Source of the DNA: Tubulanus polymorphus
Taxonomy: Eukaryota > Nemertea > Palaeonemertea > Tubulaniformes > Tubulanidae
Assembly (NCBI RefSeq): GCF_964204645.1
Contig: NC_134030.1
Span: 2,829,855-2,893,854 of the forward strand
Direction of reading: 5' to 3'
DNA: 64,000 nucleotides
Shown here: positions 44,520-57,803 of the stretch, in pieces
How positions within the stretch are numbered: the first letter of the stretch is position 1
How the letters are laid out: each line of letters starts with the position of its first letter
Made by a program: the position numbers and the translations under genes
Notes under the pieces: model-generated
Told to the model about the DNA's origin: nothing
The model's input: the letters and a program-made list of their open reading frames with translations, nothing else
The model's database searches: none

Positions 44520-44797
44520 TTCTTTTGGAAGGATTGTGAACTCTGTGATACGTCGAGAGGTCTGATTGTGGTCGGGTATTCTGAACAAGAACACCCACAC
44601 ACATATGTATACAATTTTTTGAAGTGTATCTTAGGTAGAATTGACAAATAAATTTGAAGTTCATTTTTGACGGGTAAGAAATGAATGTTTGACGAGTAAA
44701 AGATTTAACTGCCAGGTCAATCAAATATTCACTTTTACGTCACTCCGTCGACTAGGAAAACTCATCTCACTAAAAACTGTTACTGTTGTATTTTTAG

Positions 44798-45770
44798 ATT
44801 CAAATGGATTTTTCTTGCCACGTGTCTGGTTTTAACAATTATCATTTACGGAATATTCGATATAAAGAAAAGAGAAAAGAAAGATATGAGATTGCAGAAT
44901 ATAACCAAAATGATGATAAGGAATAATGTATCCAAAATGATGGAACCACCTTCGACCAATCATATCGGGTCTTTACGAGGTATCGAATTCGTTAGAAACA
45001 ATATCACATTATGTCGGGGAAACCCAAAAACTGTTGTCGTCATCATATCACATTCAGAAAACTATAAACAACGGCGGGCGATTCGTGCAACATGGGGCAA
45101 ATCGACTAGTGATATTCGGTATGTTTTCTTGCTGGGATTATCTCCCGATCAACTTTGGGAAAAGTTTGTGTCCATCGAAATGGATACATACGGTGATATC
45201 GTAGAGATGAATATGATTGAAATGTATTATAAATTGACAATGAAATCGGGAGCTATGGTGAAATGGGTTAATGAATTTTGCCGAAATGTGAAGTACGTCA
45301 TCAAAGTCGACGATGACATGTATTTGGACGCCGAGCAATATACGTCAGCGTTAGATGCGCACGCAGATCAAAGTACATATTTCTTGTGTTACTTAGTGAG
45401 GAATCCAGGCGTTGACAGAAATCCTAAAAGTAAATTTTATGTAAGTCGGAAAATGTGGCCGTTATCGCGTTACCCGGATTATTGTTCCGGTACCGGGTAT
45501 GGTTTTACGGCGAACATAATTCCCGAATTGTGGAGAACGGCTCTAGAAACTAAACTAATAAACAACGAAGATGTCTGGTTAACGGGTGTTGTAGTTAGTA
45601 AAATGAAAGGTGTAAAACATATTGACGATCGTCGCATTAATTTGTTGTCTTCATCGAGAAATTGGTGCGAATCGAAAGATTACATTACGACGCACAGACT
45701 AAGCCCTGAAAATCTGATGGATATATGGAAAGATAAACTCGCCGGGAAAATTTGCCCCCCGAAAAAATAA
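44798..45770 (+). CDS. GT31-family glycosyltransferase gene B, main exon
   Basis: Begins after TGTTGTATTTTTAG with the anchor F-K-W-IFLATCLVLTIIIYGI, then a Lys/Met-rich stem (KKREKKDMRLQ), then the catalytic domain with RRAIRATW, KVDDDMYLD (DDD at 45309-45317), YPDYCSGTGYGF and NNEDVWLTG; ends GKICPPKK, stop TAA at 45768-45770. 324 codons plus a split first codon (xx|A TTC). The reading frame has no ATG before 44886, which would lose the anchor, so an upstream start exon must exist. The sequence before the acceptor (TACGTCACTCCGTCGACT) is shared with gene C. By family it is a Golgi type II enzyme extending O-, N- or lipid-linked glycans; substrate unknown. Confidence 0.9.
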
Positions 45771-47111
45771 CGATGGATATCTCTCACCTCTGTGAAAGCA
45801 TGTTTTTATTTTCAGCAATGTAAGAATGAGAGAATTGAACATATTATCAAAATATGATAATAATTTGATGTAATTGTTGATACATGTAGTTTAGACTGGT
45901 GATTAATTAACTATCGTGAAGGCTGAGAAAGCTCAATCTCCATTTTCTCAAAAAATAATCTTTTCGATGTTTCATGATGCATACAATTCCCGGCTATCTG
46001 CCGAGTAAAAGCATAACCCCGAATCGATCAATGCTTTTTTTATTTATTTATTCTTTATTTACGAATTAAATTACATTACAAAATTACAGATAATAATATG
46101 GTTATGTAATATAAGTCGATGGATACCAGGAAAAGTTAAAAACTTGTAATCATAAAACATGGCCCTGGCACCCATGGAAATCACACACGCACACAATCTT
46201 CCACCAAACTATCACACTTGGACAGGCACAAGCATGAAAATCATGACAAGGCAGTGAACAAGTGACACAAAAAATTCAGATCAGTATACATTTAACAGAG
46301 ATTACATAACTATTGACCCATTAACAGATGATGTTTGAAATTCTTTTTAAAAACGTAGATACTCTTCGACCCTTTCAGCTTCCAATTTCCATGTCCATCT
46401 GCCACACAATTTTCTGAATAAATCTGATAATAATAGTTCATTTTCGTTCGATAATCCGTCAACGATAATGTAACACGTGTAGAAATCAAGTACGAACAAA
46501 TTGAATTCACTCACCGGCAACAGTTGGTCAACACTGATGAAACCGTTGTTTGTAAATCACCATATGTTGTCAAAACTCAACCCCGATGCGAACATCTATG
46601 TAAGACTTCTGGGGTCAGTTGCACAGTCGTGACTTAAGTCAAAAAGTGGTCTTAAATCTTAAGACTGGTCTTAAGTTGTTAGATTGGTGATAGAACTAAG
46701 TTGGTCTTAGTCTAAGCCATGACTATGCAACCGGTCCCTGGTATTAAACTCTAATCAGAGTACAATATTGATGAATGTTTTAAATGGTGGGGCAAACGTC
46801 TCAATTATTACGAAAAGAGGAGTTCAATAAAATAGTTCACGTGTTTATAGAAAACGTTTTGAGTTAATTTCGAATGTCTTGAAGAAAATAGAAATGAAAA
46901 TCTCTTAAATTCCATTATCTGCCACCCTCAATTATCCACCAAAATCGCTTGATAGTGGTGGATAACCGGGAGTCGACTGTATTGAGATTTTCATCATCAT
47001 CATCACTGCCAGATGAAATATATCAAATATGAGTATATTCAGTTATACGTCACTCCGTCGACTCGAAAACTTGTATTATTTCACTAAAAACTCTTACTGT
47101 TGTATTTTTAG
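45771..47111. other. Spacer between GT31 genes B and C
   Basis: Contains an AT-rich retroelement-like tail (46028-46090, TTTATTTATTCTTTATTTAC), the MITE at 46611-46738, and the unspliced leader of gene C. No other exon supported. Confidence 0.45.
46611..46738. repeat. Palindromic MITE, family GGCCAGTTGCACAG (copy 4)
   Basis: GGGGTCAGTTGCACAGTCGT at the left, GACTATGCAACCGGTCCC at the right, mirrored CTTAAGAC runs inside. Lies between GT31 genes B and C. Confidence 0.75.
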
Positions 47112-48039
47112 ATTCAAATGGATTGTTCTTGCCACGTGTCTGGTTTTCACATTTATCATTTACGGAATGATCGATATAAAGAAAAGAGAAAAGGGAAAAA
47201 TAGAAAAGCAGCTGTCACCACCGTCACTTTACATCGGGTCTTTGCAAGATATCAAATTCGTTAGAAACAATGCCACATTGTGTCGGGGAAACCCCAAAAC
47301 TGTTGTCGTCATCATATCGCATTCGGAAAACTATAAACAACGGTTGGCGATTCGTGCAACATGGGCCAAATCGACTAGTGATATTCGGTATGTTTTCTTA
47401 CTGGGATTATCTCCCGATCAACTTTGGGAAAAGTTTGTGTCCATCGAAATGGATACATACGGTGATATCGTAGAGATAGATATGATTGAAATGTATTATA
47501 AATTGACAATGAAATCGGGAGCTATGGTGAAATGGGTTAATGAATTTTGCCGAAATGTGAAGTACGTCATCAAAGTCGACGATGACATGTATTTGGACGC
47601 CGAGCAATATACGTCAGCGTTAGATGCGCACGCAAATCAAACTGCATATTTCTTGTGTTACTTGGTGAGGCGACCGGGCGTTGACAGAAATCCTAAAAGT
47701 AAATTTTATGTTAGTCGGAAAATGTGGTCGTTATCGCGTTACCCGGATTATTGTTCCGGTACCGGGTATGGTTTTACGGCGAACATAATTCCCGAATTGT
47801 GGAGAACGTCTCTAGAAACAAAACTAATGAACAACGAAGATGTCTGGTTAACGGGTGTTGTAGTTAGTAAAATGAAAGGTGTAAAACATATTGACGATCG
47901 TCGCATTAATTTGTTGTCTTCATCGAGAAATTGGTGCGAATCGAAAGATTACATCACGACGCACAGACTAAGCCCTGAAAATCTGATGGATATATGGAAA
48001 GATAAACTCGCCGGGAAAACTTGCCCACCGAAAAAGTAG
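47112..48039 (+). CDS. GT31-family glycosyltransferase gene C, main exon
   Basis: Same architecture as gene B: acceptor TGTTGTATTTTTAG, anchor F-K-W-IVLATCLVFTFIIYGM, short basic stem, catalytic domain with RLAIRATW, KVDDDMYLD (DDD at 47578-47586), YPDYCSGTGYGF and NNEDVWLTG; ends GKTCPPKK, TAG at 48037-48039. 309 codons plus a split first codon. Reading through the putative intron gives an ATG at 47029, so an unspliced start is an alternative. Differs from gene B by only a handful of residues in the catalytic domain, but the stem is shorter (no MRLQNITKMM segment). AATAAA follows at 48120-48125. Confidence 0.9.
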
Positions 48040-50156: not shown

Positions 50157-51070
50157 ATATTGATCCGCAGCAAGATTCCGTAGTAACTAAAAAATGTTTG
50201 TAATGATGGTTTTTGTTTACGTTGGTGGTTTCTTTATGGGTATCAGACAGCAAACGATGTGTGCAAGTTGTTGTTTGATGCTTTGATCTACCAGCGCTGA
50301 CAATAAATCAGCCAGGGGTAAAAATAATTCTTCCTCGGTTCTTGTGCTGCGATATCTGGCAAACATTCAGAATTATTTTTAAAACTTAAGGATAGACGGA
50401 ACTGTAATTGGTTGGGTCGGAACGATGAGGTGCTTTGATAGTGTGGTTTGTGCAGGGATCTCACTGTTACTTCTTGATACTCCCGACTACTTTCTATAAA
50501 AGGAAGAACCGGAAGTATAGGGAGACATGGTTGTTTTGCTTTATCCTGTAGTATTATAGAGTTAGTTAAATTATAAATGAAAATTGGTATAATAAGTATA
50601 GGATGATTTTAGATTTGATAATTAATTACATTGTATTTCTGAATCAAAAGTTTACTATTGTTGATTGGAAAAAGAAACGATGAGTTTGTTCCATAATCTA
50701 GGTGAAAACTAAGTTTTGAAAATATATCTAAATTAAGTATCCTGGATGTTAATTAAGGACAAGACCTTTATAATCGCTTAAGTTTTATGGAAGTTTAATT
50801 GTGGCAAATATCAATACTAGCTCTCTAAGGTTTCTGTTGGTGTACATGTCTGTTGGTAACTCGTAGAGAATAGCTGCTCTCTCAACGAAGATAAGCAAGG
50901 AGTGAGTAAATCAAAGCGCGTTATGACAGGAGGGTTGGAAAGAAAAGTTACTTTGGCAAATCAGTTTCTCAAATAATTTTAGATTAGCGAATCATTAAGG
51001 CTAATTCTACATGTCCAAAACCGTCATGACAGCTAGGTTGCTGCTCCTTGCCAAAAGTCGAACGGGAGAG

Positions 51071-51106
51071 TCGGCATTCTAGGAATGCCGATCTTTTCTA
51101 TAAAAA
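51071..51106 (+). promoter_or_regulatory. LTR core promoter: palindrome plus TATA box
   Basis: Arms TCGGCATTC and GAATGCCGA (51071-51079, 51083-51091) surround TAG, creating TTCTAGGAA, a STAT-type TTCN3GAA site at 51077-51085. TATAAAAA follows at 51099-51106. The same arrangement recurs in the 3' LTR. Promoter role is inferred from position. Confidence 0.55.
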
Positions 51107-51277
51107 GAGGCCCGCAGTCTTGAGAAAGCAGACTTACCAGGGACGCTCGTTAGAGATACTTGAGGTTTGGGTGGAAATACCAGAGTTAAGGCGGGTTACC
51201 AACAGTAGTGTACGATAGGAATTTGGAGTTAGGAATTGGACTGTGTACTATCTGGAGTTATTACTTTCATCAAGGTA

Positions 51278-51283
51278 AATAAA
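51278..51283 (+). terminator. LTR polyadenylation signal
   Basis: AATAAA about 180 bases after the TATA box; the copy used for 3' ends is the one in the 3' LTR at about 57650. Confidence 0.6.
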
Positions 51284-51431
51284 ATCTATATTATTATTAT
51301 TATATTCAATCAGAATTTCGGCATTTTAGTTTGATTATTTGGGTTTGTGCACGGACACGTTCTCTCGCCAGGGACCGATCTTTACGTTTTATATTCAACG
51401 ATTAAGGAGAGGATTGTGACCGGTGTATCAT

Positions 51432-51449
51432 TGGTGCCGAAACCCGGGA
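51432..51449 (+). promoter_or_regulatory. Primer binding site complementary to tRNA-Phe
   Basis: TGGTGCCGAAACCCGGGA starts one base after the 5' LTR. It is complementary to an 18-nt tRNA end TCCCGGGTTTCGGCACCA, the 3' end of animal tRNA-Phe (whose 5' end is GCCGAAA). Confidence 0.9.
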
Positions 51450-51507
51450 TATCAATAATCTTCGGTTTACGATAAACTTTTTACATTAATTGTTTAGTTT
51501 TGTTCAA

Positions 51508-51813
51508 ATGGTACATATCTTCGTATGCTCCCACTGTGGTGCGAGGAACGCATTCTCTAAGAAGCGCCGCACTACAACCAACTCAGCATACAAAAAGAAA
51601 TTGTGGGGGTCGAACCCACCTAATACCAAACCGTTTGAAATTCCGGTCGAGTTTCGGGAACCATTGTGGGATTCGAACCCACTGCCAACTCCGGTCGTCC
51701 CTGTTGAGACATTGCGGGATCCGAACCCGCGAAGTGCACGACCATTTGAGATTCCGGAGGAACTTCGAGAGCCGTCGTGGGATTCGAACCCACCACTGCA
51801 CGCTCATGTGTAA
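51508..51813 (+). CDS. Leader ORF with repeated FEIP..WDSNP peptide
   Basis: ATG at 51508 opens a 101-codon frame ending TAA 51811-51813, upstream of gag. It starts with a small CSHCG Cys pair and a basic stretch, then PFEIPVEFREPLWDSNP and PFEIPEELREPSWDSNP, 111 bases apart. Most base differences between the two copies are third-position and silent, as for a translated sequence. However, the WDSNP codons coincide with T-arm-like hairpins 2 and 4, so structural constraint could explain part of this. Confidence 0.4.
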   Translation: MVHIFVCSHCGARNAFSKKRRTTTNSAYKKKLWGSNPPNTKPFEIPVEFREPLWDSNPLPTPVVPVETLRDPNPRSARPFEIPEELREPSWDSNPPLHAHV

Positions 51814-51966
51814 TACCGGAGGAGTGTCGGGGACCTCTGTGGGATTCTAACCCACTCGCCATGCAGGTCGACACCGATGGGGCTGCACTACAGCCATTGA
51901 GGGGTTCGAACCCTCCACCTTGTGAATTGCCAAAACCGTCCAGCCAGGATGGGGAATCGAACCTAC
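51603..51966 (+). repeat. Array of seven T-arm-like hairpins (antisense B boxes)
   Basis: Hairpins at 51603-51619, 51666-51682, 51714-51730, 51777-51793, 51839-51855, 51899-51915 and 51949-51966. The type form is GTGGGATTCGAACCCAC: a 5-bp stem with a 7-nt loop that on the minus strand is a tRNA T-arm (TTCGAAT loop). Read on the minus strand, copies 2, 4 and 7 match the Pol III B box GGTTCGANTCC exactly and the rest differ at one position. Starts are 48-63 bp apart. No acceptor, D or anticodon arms can be drawn, so these are not tRNA genes. Confidence 0.85.
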
Positions 51967-52038
51967 ATCTGTCTTTTGGGTTGTCAATTTAAAAAAAAAA
52001 AATGTTATTTTAGATTAGTATTCGTTTAAAGATATACA

Positions 52039-53097
52039 ATGTCGACTGGAGGGGAGACGACGTACGGTGCGGGTGGCTCACGGGAACGATCCGCTGTAAG
52101 CAACGACACTGTTCTGCAGGCCCTCTCTGGCCTTCGCGAACAGGTGGACACAGCCACGGCGTTCATGAATTTCTCTTTGCTCCCTAAATTTACGGGACGA
52201 GACGACCAGTGCGTCACTGATTGGTTCAAAGGATTTGACCGTTTGGCCGACCTAAGGGGTTGGAACGATGACGCTAAAAAGAAACAGTTGTATTGGTTTT
52301 TGGCTGGCCCGGCCCTAATCTTATTTAATGATCTTCGAATTGATCAGGGAACCGATGCGACCGGTGGCAAAGTTGTCACTCCCTGGGAAAATATTGTCCG
52401 TGCGTTTTGCGCGCAATTTAGCCCCACCTCGTGGGCTTTGGTCAAGGAGTCGGCTTTGACGACGATGCGACAGGGGGAGACACAACCGGTCGATAGGTTT
52501 GCGGAAGAGATTGATCGTGTGGCCTCGAGTTTGAAATTTTCGGACCACCAGAAAAAGATGTTACTAATTAATAACTCCCGCCCTGATATTTCTGTCTATT
52601 TGTTGTCACAGCGTCCTACGACGTTTAGGGATGCATGGGAGGCAGCCAGAATGGCGGAGCATATCGAACAACGTAAAGCTCTGTCGTCTCCCAAGGTATC
52701 GCAAATTGGGACCGAACCAAATAAAGCGATGGGTGACGTTATGGCTGAATTACGGGACATGTTCCGCCAAATTATGGACATCCAGAAGTCTACCCGTACT
52801 CAGCAGAATGATAGAGCCACATTTTATAGCGAAAGCCGCCCGTTACAAAGGTCACAGGATGGCCAGGTGGTGTGCTTTCAATGTCACGCCCCTGGTCATT
52901 ACGCCAGGAATTGCCCGACGTGGCGTTACGACCAACAAAGGTCACCAAACCGGGACGCATTTCAGCGTGATAATCGCCGTCCCCAAAATGCTAGTAGGGG
53001 TCACTTTCGGTCACAGAATCTTGGGCATGATTCCCAACGGGTTAATCGAACATTTGGTCAGGGAAACGACCGGAGACCTCATCCTATGGACCGATAA
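52039..53097 (+). CDS. gag: Retrotransposon Gag
   Basis: 352 residues from ATG 52039, the first ATG after a poly-A stretch. Forms the particle that packages element RNA in the cytoplasm. Residues about 40-200 resemble the Ty3/Gypsy capsid region (LLPKFTGRDDQCVTDWFKGF, LYWFLAGPA, FCAQFSP, MRQGETQPVDRFAEEIDR). A CCHC zinc knuckle CFQCHAPGHYARNC occupies 279-292, followed by an Arg/Gln/Asn-rich RNA-binding tail. The TAA stop at 53095-53097 lies in the loop of the frameshift hairpin. The gene is intact and its LTRs are almost identical, so it is probably functional. Confidence 0.93.
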   Translation: MSTGGETTYGAGGSRERSAVSNDTVLQALSGLREQVDTATAFMNFSLLPKFTGRDDQCVTDWFKGFDRLADLRGWNDDAKKKQLYWFLAGPALILFNDLRIDQGTDATGGKVVTPWENIVRAFCAQFSPTSWALVKESALTTMRQGETQPVDRFAEEIDRVASSLKFSDHQKKMLLINNSRPDISVYLLSQRPTTFRDAWEAARMAEHIEQRKALSSPKVSQIGTEPNKAMGDVMAELRDMFRQIMDIQKSTRTQQNDRATFYSESRPLQRSQDGQVVCFQCHAPGHYARNCPTWRYDQQRSPNRDAFQRDNRRPQNASRGHFRSQNLGHDSQRVNRTFGQGNDRRPHPMDR

Positions 53098-53453
53098 GGG
53101 TGGGGTCGCGCAATGAATGGTCAACTGAGCCCTCGCCGGACTCGTTAATAAGGAGTGATTATTGGTGGGATGACACATATTCGGGTTATCATAGTTATGA
53201 TGATGACAGTCCGGTAATTGATGATTATATTTTTGATGATGATGATGATGATGATTATTATTATTTAGAGGACGATAGGGATGATATATTTGACATGTCA
53301 TTTGATCAGGGCGACATGCTAGCTGATTCAGTTGACGATTATTTTGAACCTGAGGGGAACTGTAATGCAGATTACTTAGATGACACTGAACCTTTACATT
53401 TAGATAAGTTTATTGATTATCACACTCCTTCATGGGGTGCCGATGACGTATGA
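53046..53453 (+). CDS. Acidic frame between Gag and protease, reached by -1 frameshift
   Basis: Open from 53046 to TGA 53451-53453, with no ATG near its start, overlapping the end of gag. Translated after the slippery site it gives about 130 residues, extremely rich in Asp and Tyr (DDDDDDDYYYLEDDRDD). Function unknown; an acidic linker or chaperone-like segment is possible. It must shift +1 (or reinitiate) to continue into protease. Confidence 0.65.
   Translation, partial: SNIWSGKRPETSSYGPIRVGSRNEWSTEPSPDSLIRSDYWWDDTYSGYHSYDDDSPVIDDYIFDDDDDDDYYYLEDDRDDIFDMSFDQGDMLADSVDDYFEPEGNCNADYLDDTEPLHLDKFIDYHTPSWGADDV
53061..53107 (+). promoter_or_regulatory. Programmed -1 ribosomal frameshift signal at the gag end
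   Basis: Heptamer GGGAAAC (53061-53067) in the gag frame as G GGA AAC, a 7-nt spacer, then a 10-bp stem: GACCTCATCC (53075-53084) with GGGTGGGGTC (53098-53107), two of the pairs G-U wobbles, loop 53085-53097 containing the gag TAA. A -1 slip enters the acidic frame that is open from 53046. Confidence 0.8.
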
Positions 53454-55056
53454 CATTCAAGATCGTAACTTTGGGGATAGCTGGAGGGACAATTCTCAGT
53501 TGTCGTTAGATGGAAATTTTTATATGGATCAGGGATCCAATTTTGAGGACATCTGGAGGGACAATTCCCAGTTGTCGGCTACTTACGAGCATATAAAAAG
53601 ACACAGGAGGGTTACGTTTAGCGATCCGGTTAAATTGCAGGAGGTACGTGCTGATATGGCGTGCTCGGGTGACAATATTAGTATTGATAGGTCACACCCT
53701 AGAGGGGTTAATGGTCCGACGGATTCGGCAGAAGATGACCTTTTTAGAGATAGGAAGTCTCATTTAGATTGTCACGAAGGCGCTTTTGATCAGTATAGGT
53801 ACCCAGCAACCTCCGAATCAGCAATACAATGTGATCTTGTGTCATCAGATTCAAGTAGTAGTAATAATTCACGATCGGAATGTCTTAATGATCAGAGTAA
53901 TATGGAAACTATTTTGTCAAAGATATCTAGTCAGGAGTCAATGTCGGAGAATTTGTGTCACTCGTTTGAAAGAGGACAGCACTTTCCTGTCACCTCAAAT
54001 GCCAGCAGTTTTCACCATCCAGTTGGGGATGGAATGTCCCATGAACAGGACAGAGGTCAAGTTGTCCTCACGTCTAAACCGAATATGCCAATCAACGAAA
54101 AGGTTGGGATAGGAGATTCGAACTCCGATTGTCAACCAACTGTTCACTGTCAGGAACAATTTCCACCTGTTACGATGACTTTAGGTAACACGTCAACCAA
54201 CGACATAGGGTCCTTTTCCAGTCAGAACAACACTATTGGACAGGAGGCTTATTCCCCGTCAATCATGGCAACTGCCGCCAACCGAGTGACTGGTAGTCAT
54301 TCAGGGACACCGTTAAACATTTTGATTGATACGGGTGCCGATATTTCTGTAGTGTCAAACAATTACTTCATCAATCATCCTCAGATATCGAATGGCCCTT
54401 TGCAGGAGGGACAATTTCAGTCCGCCCGTGGGGTAGATGGTACTAAGTTTTATTTAAAAGGTGTTATTTCCGTAGATTTTGTATTAGGAAATTTGGACGT
54501 GTCACATTCTATGTACGTGGTGGATGGAGTCACCTCGGACTTCATTCTCGGAGTTGATTTCCTGGAACGAAACCAGGCAGTTATCGATTATGCTAAAAAG
54601 GCTCTCTTGTTGCCAGGCGCCGACATAATTTACTTTAGTAATGATGTCATCTTGGGGAAATCTTCGTCGGTTAAAGTCACGCGTATGACTGTTATTCCCC
54701 CTTCATGCGATGTCACCGTAGACCGTAAGTGGTTAATTGACAAGTCTCAGTCATCGATTGCAGCCTTTGAGCCTGTACATGATTTGAGAATGCGTGATCT
54801 CATGAGCGCAAGGTCAGTTGTTAGCGTCATGCCATCAAGGCATAGGCTTCGAGTCACGAACCCTACGTCACGACACGTCACCCTCTTTGAAGATACGTGT
54901 CGTAGTGATTCGTGGACAGATGGGTGGTCACTTGACCGATCACTCAAAACAGAGGCGAAGTCAGGACAGCTTCCTCGGCCACCGGAGGTGTCTATCACAC
55001 ATGTGGAAGACCCTCAGACGTCAGACGAAATTTGTAAGTATAATCGAATTATTTAG
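53443..55056 (+). CDS. pro: Retroviral-type aspartic protease with long N-terminal extension
   Basis: Frame open from 53404; ATG at 53443 overlaps the end of the acidic frame (ATGACGTATGA). Stop 55054-55056. The first 290 or so residues are hydrophilic with a repeated GDSWRDNSQLS / EDIWRDNSQLS motif. The protease core is clear: ILIDTGADISVVS (DTG at 54328-54336), a flap-like segment, then DFILGVDFLERNQAVIDY. The tail (VTVDRKW, RLRVTNPTSRHVTLFED) resembles the spacer that precedes reverse transcriptase in Gypsy elements, but the frame stops there. The enzyme would cleave Gag products inside particles. It is in the same frame as gag. Confidence 0.85.
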   Translation: MTYDIQDRNFGDSWRDNSQLSLDGNFYMDQGSNFEDIWRDNSQLSATYEHIKRHRRVTFSDPVKLQEVRADMACSGDNISIDRSHPRGVNGPTDSAEDDLFRDRKSHLDCHEGAFDQYRYPATSESAIQCDLVSSDSSSSNNSRSECLNDQSNMETILSKISSQESMSENLCHSFERGQHFPVTSNASSFHHPVGDGMSHEQDRGQVVLTSKPNMPINEKVGIGDSNSDCQPTVHCQEQFPPVTMTLGNTSTNDIGSFSSQNNTIGQEAYSPSIMATAANRVTGSHSGTPLNILIDTGADISVVSNNYFINHPQISNGPLQEGQFQSARGVDGTKFYLKGVISVDFVLGNLDVSHSMYVVDGVTSDFILGVDFLERNQAVIDYAKKALLLPGADIIYFSNDVILGKSSSVKVTRMTVIPPSCDVTVDRKWLIDKSQSSIAAFEPVHDLRMRDLMSARSVVSVMPSRHRLRVTNPTSRHVTLFEDTCRSDSWTDGWSLDRSLKTEAKSGQLPRPPEVSITHVEDPQTSDEICKYNRII

Positions 55057-56495
55057 AGTTTGGATCAAGATGCATACGTCCTATTGAAAATTATGAATTG
55101 TATACGGTAAGCGTCTCTTCAGTAGGTTATCGAAATATAATTACATAAGTATTGTGAAACTGAAGTATATATAACGCATTGTTGCCAATGAGTTAACTCC
55201 TGATCTGGGTTTAATCTAATACAGGAGATAAAGACAACTATAAATAAAAGTGAATAATAGCTTGATTGTCGTGATATTGGTTTTTTTTTTTTGCTGAAAT
55301 ATCACTAGTCTCTAGGGTTTATTATCTGTAGTCTGAATGGATGTCATTAATTGTCAGTTAGAAAAGAAAGAGTTATGATATGTTTGAATAATCTCTGTAT
55401 TATTATGATATTAATTGTAGGATACCCGTATCGGATGTGTTGGAATGAGACCGCCGAAGATACGATAGCACTAAGATGGAAGAATGCCTTCTGTCAACCG
55501 CAATAGATGTTGATGGGTACCCCCCTGATAGTGACCATATGGAGATGGGGACTTGTTGGGAGGTATCCTGAGACTCTATTCGACGCAACTGATAGTTTGA
55601 AAAACCAGCAACTGGTATGCTCTGGCCGAGATGGGTGATATTAATTCACCGATTCGTCAAATAACGAAGAAACGGAGCGAATATACGACATACAACAGCG
55701 AACTTTGGGCGTTGGTTTTAACGGGATAGATTCATGCTCGATGTTAGTCATGCGATTCTGGCCATGGTTAGTGGTGTTTGTCACTCGCGAAGACCAGTTA
55801 TATACTCACAAACTTAAGTGATGAAGGGTGGACAAAGACACCTGGCCAATGCGATACGAAAAATGAAGAAGAGTGATAATTTCCGTAGACATTTTAGCGG
55901 AGTAAAGCCGAGTGTGTTCAAGATGGCTCCCGTGTAGTTACATTAACATTCGATGGAATGTTGTTCGCTCAAGCCGTAAGATGCGAATACATTACTGTTC
56001 CGTTTCTATATTAACTGTGGAGAAAAGACTCCGATATAGTAACCGTAGTACTATAGCGTCTATGAATAGCGAGCAAGTATTCAGCTGAACATAAATGTGT
56101 TTTGCCGTACTATCAACGTAGCAGTACGCGCTTCGAGGAACTGCGGTGGATGACGTCATTCGTCCGTCCATGACGCACCTTGTTGTGTCTGGTAGCTGTT
56201 GCGTCACTTCGCGGTAAATTCTAAACTCAAACTGTGAACTGTTTTGTGCTTAACTTTCGAGTGTTTAGTGTGCGGGGACAGCGGTCTCGAATGAACTTTT
56301 TTCCGATTGGGTATCCAGAACTTTAAATGCGGTTTTATGATAAACTATATCCTGAACTTTAATACGCGTTTGTTGTGTTGAACTTTTAAACAGTTACTCG
56401 TTGCATGAATTGTTTTTTTTTTTGTGATTGATGTTCTTTTTCAGGATCTGTCTAGGGAAGTTTCAGCGCGATTTTCATGAGTCAGTCTAAATTCA
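55057..56495 (+). other. Internal region without pol
   Basis: About 1.4 kb where reverse transcriptase, RNase H and integrase would normally sit. No long frame; a short stretch around 55675-55730 (..YNSELWALV..) is faintly RNase-H-like but interrupted, and I do not call it. Only LTR-proximal structure follows. Confidence 0.6.
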
Positions 56496-56514
56496 AAATT
56501 TCGGGACGAAATTT
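56496..56514 (+). repeat. Pre-PPT hairpin AAATTTC-GGGAC-GAAATTT
   Basis: A perfect 7-bp stem with 5-nt loop, 18 bases before the purine tract. A similar TTTCGGGACGAAATTT motif before the polypurine tract occurs in many Ty3/Gypsy elements. Confidence 0.6.
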
Positions 56515-56519
56515 AAACT

Positions 56520-56532
56520 GGATAGGGAGTGA
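56520..56532 (+). promoter_or_regulatory. Polypurine tract
   Basis: GGATAGGGAGTGA immediately before the 3' LTR; likely primer for plus-strand DNA synthesis. Confidence 0.75.
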
Positions 56533-57803
56533 TGATCCGCAGCAAGATTCCGTAGTAACTAAAAAATGTTTGTAATGATGGTTTTTGTTTACGTTGGTGG
56601 TTTCTTTATGGGTATCAGACAGCAAACGATGTGTGCAAGTTGTTGTTTGATGCTTTGATCTACCAGCGCTGACAATAAATCAGCCAGGGGTAAAAATAAT
56701 TCTTCCTCGGTTCTTGTGCTGCGATATCTGGCAAACATTCAGAATTATTTTTAAAACTTAAGGATAGACGGAACTGTAATTGGTTGGGTCGGAACGATGA
56801 GGTGCTTTGATAGTGTGGTTTGTGCAGGGATCTCACTGTTACTTCTTGATACTCCCGACTACTTTCTATAAAAGGAAGAACCGGAAGTATAGGGAGACAT
56901 GGTTGTTTTGCTTTATCCTGTAGTATTATAGAGTTAGTTAAATTATAAATGAAAATTGGTATAATAAGTATAGGATGATTTTAGATTTGATAATTAATTA
57001 CATTGTATTTCTGAATCAAAAGTTTACTATTGTTGATTGGAAAAAGAAACGATGAGTTTGTTCCATAATCTAGGTGAAAACTAAGTTTTGAAAATATATC
57101 TAAATTAAGTATCCTGGATGTTAATTAAGGACAAGACCTTTATAATCGCTTAAGTTTTATGGAAGTTTAATTGTGGCAAATATCAATACTAGCTCTCTAA
57201 GGTTTCTGTTGGTGTACATGTCTGTTGGTAACTCGTAGAGAATAGCTGCTCTCTCAACGAAGATAAGCAAGGAGTGAGTAAATCAAAGCGCGTTATGACA
57301 GGAGGGTTGGAAAGAAAAGTTACTTTGGCAAATCAGTTTCTCAAATAATTTTAGATTAGCGAATCATTAAGGCTAATTCTACATGTCCAAAACCGTCATG
57401 ACAGCTAGGTTGCTGCTCCTTGCCAAAAGTCGAACGGGAGAGTCGGCATTCTAGGAATGCCGATCTTTTCTATAAAAAGAGGCCCGCAGTCTTGAGAAAG
57501 CAGACTTACCAGGGACGCTCGTTAGAGATACTTGAGGTTTGGGTGGAAATACCAGAGTTAAGGCGGGTTACCAACAGTAGTGTACGATAGGAATTTGGAG
57601 TTAGGAATTGGACTGTGTACTATCTGGAGTTATTACTTTCATCAAGGTAAATAAAATCTATATTATTATTATTATATTCAATCAGAATTTCGGCATTTTA
57701 GTTTGATTATTTGGGTTTGTGCACGGACACGTTCTCTCGCCAGGGACCGATCTTTACGTTTTTATATTCAACGATTAAGGAGAGGATTGTGACCGGTGTA
57801 TCA
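56533..57803 (+). repeat. 3' LTR
   Basis: Repeats the 5' LTR; the only difference found by eye is one extra T (CGTTTTTATA versus CGTTTTATA). Followed by ATAT. Confidence 0.95.

Follow-up and report, generated by a model that had tools for sequence, protein, structure and literature searches.

Plant Tat/Ogre elements carry an extra open reading frame (ORF) upstream of gag, and we know of no hairpin or T-arm-like repeat in that ORF. In the MDG1 group of Drosophila, which includes 412 and mdg1, two small ORFs, sORF1 and sORF2, are located upstream of gag and are reported to show low non-synonymous change (PMC11952523). The Ty1 and Ty3 elements use contacts with the T-arm of tRNAiMet (PMC5371799, PMC4974528). 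Here we describe a family of long terminal repeat (LTR) retrotransposons from the nemertean Tubulanus polymorphus, in which tandem hairpins resembling antisense tRNA T-arms occupy the leader. We consider it likely that these hairpins make up the repetitive part of ORF-a, a gene for an accessory protein lying between the primer-binding site (PBS) and gag, that their DNA is also kept nearly palindromic, and that their likeness to T-arms is unselected.

The element was found in a window of 64,000 nucleotides, which is the whole stretch of DNA analysed. It extends over 50161-57803 and is bounded by two LTRs on the plus strand, the 5′ LTR at 50161..51430 and the 3′ LTR at 56533..57803, for which a pairwise comparison gives 99.92% identity in an alignment of 1271 columns. 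Judged from its sequence and this identity, it is a young element of the Ty3/gypsy type. The PBS TGGTGCCGAAACCCGGGAT (51432..51450, plus strand) fits the host tRNA-Phe(GAA), with 15 of its bases complementary to the 3′ end ATCCCGGGTTTCGGC of this tRNA, the discriminator A and CCA being assumed as usual for tRNA 3′ ends. An exact pattern search of the genome finds two tRNA-Phe(GAA) genes, at C4:22943113 and C7:914026. The PBS is single in the window copy; in some relatives (L009, L015, L016, L018, L024, L025, and L026), the PBS and nine bases of the LTR end are tandemly repeated with a 32-nt period, in 2-4 copies between the LTR end and ORF-a. Farther downstream, gag (52039..53097, plus strand) matches Retrotrans_gag (PF03732) above the cut-off, its zinc knuckle scores slightly under its own cut-off, and a plus-strand ORF at 53404..55056 encodes a retroviral-type aspartic protease (PR). 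Gag and PR are the sole domains recognised in the window copy, and no plus-strand ORF of at least 94 aa is present from 55087 to the 3′ LTR. This copy looks like a candidate non-autonomous element because only short ORFs are found between the protease ORF and the 3′ LTR. The order taken as the mark of Ty3/gypsy elements, which is gag followed by PR, reverse transcriptase (RT), RNase H, and integrase, is found in a relative (L047/L112) having RVT_1, RT_RNaseH, and then rve with a chromodomain. Elsewhere in the window, at 44709-48039, there are two tandem near-duplicate ORFs of 353 and 340 aa, which we take to be galactosyltransferases from their appearance.

Seven hairpin units are present at 51603-51966, between the PBS and the gag ATG at 52039, as a first reading made from the sequence only had reported. 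They start at 51603, 51666, 51714, 51777, 51839, 51899, and 51950, and the resulting spacings of 63, 48, 63, 62, 60, and 51 bp agree with the range of 48-63 bp given by that reading. All are read on the plus strand. Unit 1, GTGGGGGTCGAACCCAC (51603..51619), encodes L-W-G-S-N-P-P; units 2 and 4, both GTGGGATTCGAACCCAC (51666..51682 and 51777..51793), encode W-D-S-N-P; and unit 3, GCGGGATCCGAACCCGC (51714..51730), encodes R-D-P-N-P. Unit 4 is the final in-frame unit of the window copy, in which unit 5 (GTGGGATTCTAACCCAC, 51839..51855), unit 6 (GAGGGGTTCGAACCCTC, 51899..51915), and unit 7 (TGGGGAATCGAACCTAC, 51950..51966) are outside the ORF-a frame. The hairpin stem ascribed to all seven units has its five pairs complete in six of them, but unit 7 forms just three of the five in the 17-mer register. 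Compared with GGANTCGAACC, the antisense form of the B-box consensus, three units match exactly and the other four deviate at a single base, the same numbers as first noted. Unit 5 has a T opposite C56 of the T-loop, and this T recurs in every correctly placed W-type row (16 of 18). At up to two mismatches, GGGATTCGAACCC matches 18 times in the window compared with 0.81 expected, and eight of these 18 rows are inside the array, where each of the seven units accounts for one and the eighth is a minus-strand match that overlaps unit 6. The array is not a chance occurrence. An origin of the whole units from tRNA was also considered and rejected, as ARAGORN found no tRNA over the window and Rfam gave no match to the leaders at the gathering score; weak tmRNA and plastid-UTR matches covered the 17-nt units alone.

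The sequence-only reading handled the leader as non-coding, whereas the array is actually inside ORF-a, an accessory ORF upstream of gag (51508..51813, plus strand). In the window copy, ORF-a ends early at 101 aa because the spacing between units 4 and 5 is 62 nt instead of 63. A leader search gave 48 matches, and the set that was read consists of the window and 38 loci, L009-L046 (39 sequences). ORF-a is open from its ATG with a complete C-terminus in 12 of the 39 (L028-L033, L036, L040-L043, and L046), where it encodes 175-212 aa, with a CxxC stretch at the start and a conserved F-rich stretch at the end. In these intact relatives, every one of the 67 unit spacings is a multiple of three, and the units are read in one frame as W/R-D-S-N-P or a near variant, with the codons TGG GAT TCG AAC CCA. 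The form of exactly 101 aa is found in 13 copies of the window's subfamily, via one 62-nt spacing, and L024 is a natural copy of the same kind in which ORF-a reads on to 155 aa. Among 49 matches to ORF-a in the genome, 47 are in loci of the family; of the other two, one adjoins a gag relative and the second, C2:14527410, has no assignment.

Codon alignments of six chosen subfamily pairs gave pS values of 0.42-0.63 and pN values of 0.08-0.24 for ORF-a outside the motif, both being uncorrected proportions. By this measure pS is well above pN, which argues that ORF-a is selected as a protein, and the codon comparisons show purifying selection in its evolution. Within the motif, pS is approximately half to three quarters of its value outside. 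The motif codons GAT and AAC are fixed, and D and N codons outside the motif are likewise unchanged, at few sites (0/2 to 0/7 per pair), so that their fixation does not decide for nucleotide constraint. A point against selection as protein is that the window subfamily has spread even though its ORF-a is truncated at 101 aa, its N/S ratio being a weak 0.55. The ORF-a protein would be made from the leader and may be a small multivalent accessory factor acting via repeated E-P-L-W-D-S-N-P peptides, a role in which our confidence is lower than in the assignment of the array to ORF-a. None of 124 candidates in a protein search passed E 0.01, in a database possibly poor in animals, no Pfam entry matched above the cut-off, and the structure model was unusable (mean pLDDT 39); for these reasons the function of the protein is a guess.

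ORF-a is followed in fuller copies by ORF-b, which is 105-146 aa where complete, carries the same motif, and adds two to four units; its pS of 0.31-0.55 compares with a pN of 0.12-0.22 (5 pairs). The third, ORF-c, is Cys-rich, has 265-268 aa and one T-D-S-N motif, and is succeeded in the fuller relatives by gag, protease, and RT. One of these, L112 (C9:3954600-3957250, minus strand), further has RNase H, integrase, and a chromodomain. Past the integrase-chromodomain of L112, an ORF whose weak match to Baculo_F stays under the cut-off suggests a putative env-like gene. An N-myristoylation motif (MGxxxS/T), sought by reading, is absent from the three leader ORFs, which start with MVxI in ORF-a, MSxG or MLVG in ORF-b, and MSG in ORF-c. 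The two gag copies without a leader match that were checked, L113 and L114, are both without a PBS and truncated or deleted. With three extra ORFs before gag, the family joins the elements known for such genes.

The DNA of the units is constrained as a palindrome beside the peptide, and pair 2 of the stem covaries via a synonymous codon position. This pair joins the W/R/G codon, by its first base, to the Pro codon, by its third. In 114 motif instances from ORF-a and ORF-b, from which units with a peptide off the search pattern were left out, pair 2 is T-A in 70, A-T in 18, C-G in 8, G-C in 5, T-G in 2, and unpaired in 11, nine of the latter being one unit type of L028-L033; all four Watson-Crick types are found. 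The shuffle figures are only guides because shuffles ignore descent, and they are as follows: among 34 unit lineages chosen from L031, L036, L038 (ORF-b), L040 or L041, and L024, pair 2 is paired in 31, for which the shuffle mean is 18.2 (0 of 200,000 shuffles reach 31) and the codon-usage expectation is 18.4; after collapse to 20 distinct unit states, 17 are paired, a value reached in 5 of 200,000 shuffles; and with 14 further units, eight of them paired, from two degraded copies (L038, L039) and window unit 7, 39 of 48 are paired (shuffle mean 24.1; 0 of 200,000). Replacement is seen at pair 2 between orthologous units, one of which has C-G in L031, C-A in L036, and T-A in L040, and a second A-T, A-C, and G-C. 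Covariation is absent from the outer stem pair, at which 28 of 34 lineages are paired compared with a shuffle mean of 27.5.

Fixed and changing positions were distinguished in 42 comparisons of orthologous units from four loci, which are not independent of one another. Stem positions 3-5, the partners 4′ and 5′, and loop position L6 show no difference (0/42), 3′ and L7 differ in three comparisons each, and L1 to L5 differ in 6, 8, 6, 6, and 9, respectively; the covarying positions 2 and 2′ are the most variable (12/42 and 20/42). A coding palindrome combines an inverted repeat in frame, selection at the amino acid level, and pairing that is kept, and all three are found here, the last at pair 2. 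According to the sequence-only reading, the array would be an incidental tandem repeat if other family members lacked it or if its stems were not conserved by compensatory change. The leaders of family members conserve the array, with a unit number varying from 2 to 12 counted per locus, and the covariance check reveals compensatory change at one stem pair, pair 2. By that reading's own test, therefore, the array is not an incidental repeat.

The upkeep of the stems could be explained by mutation only, in that quasi-palindrome template switching or unit exchange matches the two arms while the peptide alone is selected. Template switching is described as able to generate stems, to repair them, and to imitate compensatory change (PMC8794818). 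The varying unit number is in line with this explanation, as are the breaks at pair 2, which occur in 3 of the 34 lineages (two of them ORF-a units of L036, where two wobble pairs are also found) and in 6 of the 14 added units. On the other side, the fixed stem positions 3-5 amid changing loops would have to be explained solely through the peptide, and matched pairs of all four types exist. We give this explanation in its exclusive form somewhat less than an even chance.

Alternatively, the hairpins with their near-palindromic UUCGAA loops might serve the genomic RNA in packaging or, by kissing loops, in dimerisation, with coding being secondary. Ty1 has been modelled to dimerise through kissing hairpins near its 5′ end (PMC5454406). 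The position of the array beside the PBS, the stem covariation, and the six-base loop palindrome, which is found in three of the seven window units and in 2-6 units of five other copies examined, are all compatible with such an RNA signal. However, the loop palindrome is not conserved, the loop centre differing in 21 of 126 position comparisons, and unusual folding was rejected for the 381-nt array, which folds no better than shuffles (z -0.65; 27 of 100 shuffles fold as well). In the wider context, only two of the seven window hairpins have a mean pair probability above 0.5, compared with 3/12 in L031, 2/8 in L036, and 6/9 in L040, and in the minimum-energy fold of the window the units pair with one another. 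Recent W copies also argue against an RNA signal: 14 of 68 hairpin sites are variable compared with 63 of 235, and 3 of 51 compared with 7 of 102, with the data for units 4 to 7 based on 16 of 18 rows (all but L019 and L021), and no hairpin-specific constraint was seen within this young subfamily. A role of the array in dimerisation, or in packaging as the sequence-only reading had proposed, is possible, and an RNA signal as the main purpose of the hairpins is unlikely. A dual-coded leader gene can also be proposed, in which the tandem W/R-D-S-N-P repeats of two neighbouring ORFs ahead of gag are multivalent protein motifs and, at the same time, form as many as 12 RNA hairpins whose loops are self-complementary; the element's own proteins would read the hairpins in packaging or dimerisation, and the synonymous codon position would evolve to keep the stem. 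We put this proposal forward as tentative and rather unlikely. For the palindromes, we rank template switching or unit exchange above RNA function; the stems of the ORF-a repeats would then be maintained as templates switch or as nearly identical units exchange sequence, possibly with a weaker role at the RNA level.

The motif is not confined to the element. In the 267.8 Mb of genome searched, close pairs of the motif number 96 compared with 0 for the reversed control, and 90 of the 96 fall, by position, in copies of the window element's family; the remaining six (L062-L066) are repeats that share little with the family beyond the motif. The 13-mer GGGATTCGAACCC occurs at 1806 sites compared with 2 for the reversed control. 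A sample of 20 stretches (L088-L107), being the first listed sites of contig C1 and holding 22 of the 1806 sites, contained no tRNA gene according to ARAGORN, and 10 of the stretches are in one dispersed repeat and three in another. The number of GGGATTCGAACCC sites and the dispersed repeats indicate that the abundance of the motif has causes outside the element. The repeat of the 10 stretches, flanked by CATCTTCACCCGTCAA...ACTACGCTAAAGC or by a near variant of it, resembles a SINE of tRNA origin. L062, L063, and L064 are other tandem repeats around CAGGGATTCGAACCCGA, of ~51-54 bp in three to eight copies, and Rfam gave nothing for the L064 array up to an E of 1. L066 (4572-4651, reverse complement) has two units 63 nt apart in the W-D-S-N-P frame, with a stop codon directly before each, and is without any corresponding ORF-a match.

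The likeness to tRNA had led the sequence-only reading to propose that the leader RNA anneals tRNA T-arms for primer capture. The units are complementary to consensus T-arms, and among 12 distinct T-arms (from 20 fetched tRNA genes) and that of tRNA-Phe, tested against 40 distinct unit 17-mers, tRNA-Phe has a middling duplex energy (-17.0 kcal, seventh of 13, range -10.3 to -23.6), so that it could still anneal. Its T-arm identity, however, is the third lowest of the 13, with a mean of 9.1 of 17 compared with 12.8 for the best, Lys. The comparison of the loops with host tRNA genes, which that reading had recommended, is also unfavourable, as the unit positions L3 and L5 drift although the bases they face, A58 and C56 of the T-loop, are kept in all 20 fetched genes. 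A change between C and T at L4 is no argument, because L4 faces position 57, where 13 of the 20 genes have G and seven have A. Selection for T-loop pairing or for a B box should leave L3 and L5 unchanged, and the observed loop agrees with a Ser/Leu/Thr/Pro codon that varies while its neighbours stay fixed. Moreover, two related families share the first 11 PBS bases yet have no array in the three leaders concerned: the sister family (L108 and L109), with gag 58-65% identical, and L110, with gag 31% identical, are without any unit. The priming of this type in the clade therefore needs no array. A further relative, L111 (gag 28% identical), is without the 11 PBS bases and has no units save one weak single match. 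Between PBS and gag, the leaders of L108 and L109 contain an unrelated 89-aa ORF (MDE/DxIIEAQETYDFLL...). Taken with the drift of the loop, the poor identity of the primer T-arm and the array-free relatives leave primer capture very improbable.

A second proposal was that the array binds TFIIIC and acts as a boundary in the DNA. C56 is especially important in the B-box core, and its equivalent in the units, L5, is narrowly the most variable loop position, differing in 9 of 42 comparisons. Four of the seven window units miss the B-box consensus, the covarying pair falls outside the B box, and single sites of this kind are unremarkable because of the 1806 like 13-mers in the genome. In favour of the proposal, the minus strand reads as a B box without mismatch in three units, and TFIIIC sites act as boundaries in fission yeast (PMC4502379). 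We regard a TFIIIC array as highly unlikely here. We trace the T-arm likeness to the palindrome and to the codons within it; selection does not seem to act on the likeness itself, which is probably a by-product or a relic.

Assigned to ORF-a, the array illustrates how a protein repeat can present itself as a conspicuous series of tRNA-like hairpins. The family also offers a clean system for the persistence of palindromes in coding DNA, with many natural copies, a changing unit number, and a covarying synonymous position, in which selection on RNA could be set against template switching, for example during reverse transcription. A literature search by title and start of abstract, with its reach in non-subscription journals, found no such array described.

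Compared with known systems, the family is like Tat/Ogre in having an extra ORF ahead of gag. As in Ty1 and Ty3 with their extended primer contacts, the element RNA is complementary to tRNA T-arms; in contrast to them, the complementarity is not preferentially to the primer tRNA and is repeated many times. The family resembles the MDG1 group in having an ORF under purifying selection between PBS and gag. The MDG1 sORF2 is transmembrane, fusogen-like, and mostly provided with an N-myristoylation motif (PMC11952523), whereas ORF-a, ORF-b, and ORF-c start with MV, MS, and MS, and the sORFs are not known to have repeats or palindromes. Coding palindromes are also found in the mitochondrial genes of Nematomorpha, but there they reach up to 284 bp, whereas the family described here has units of 15-17 nt, arranged in tandem and carried by a mobile element.
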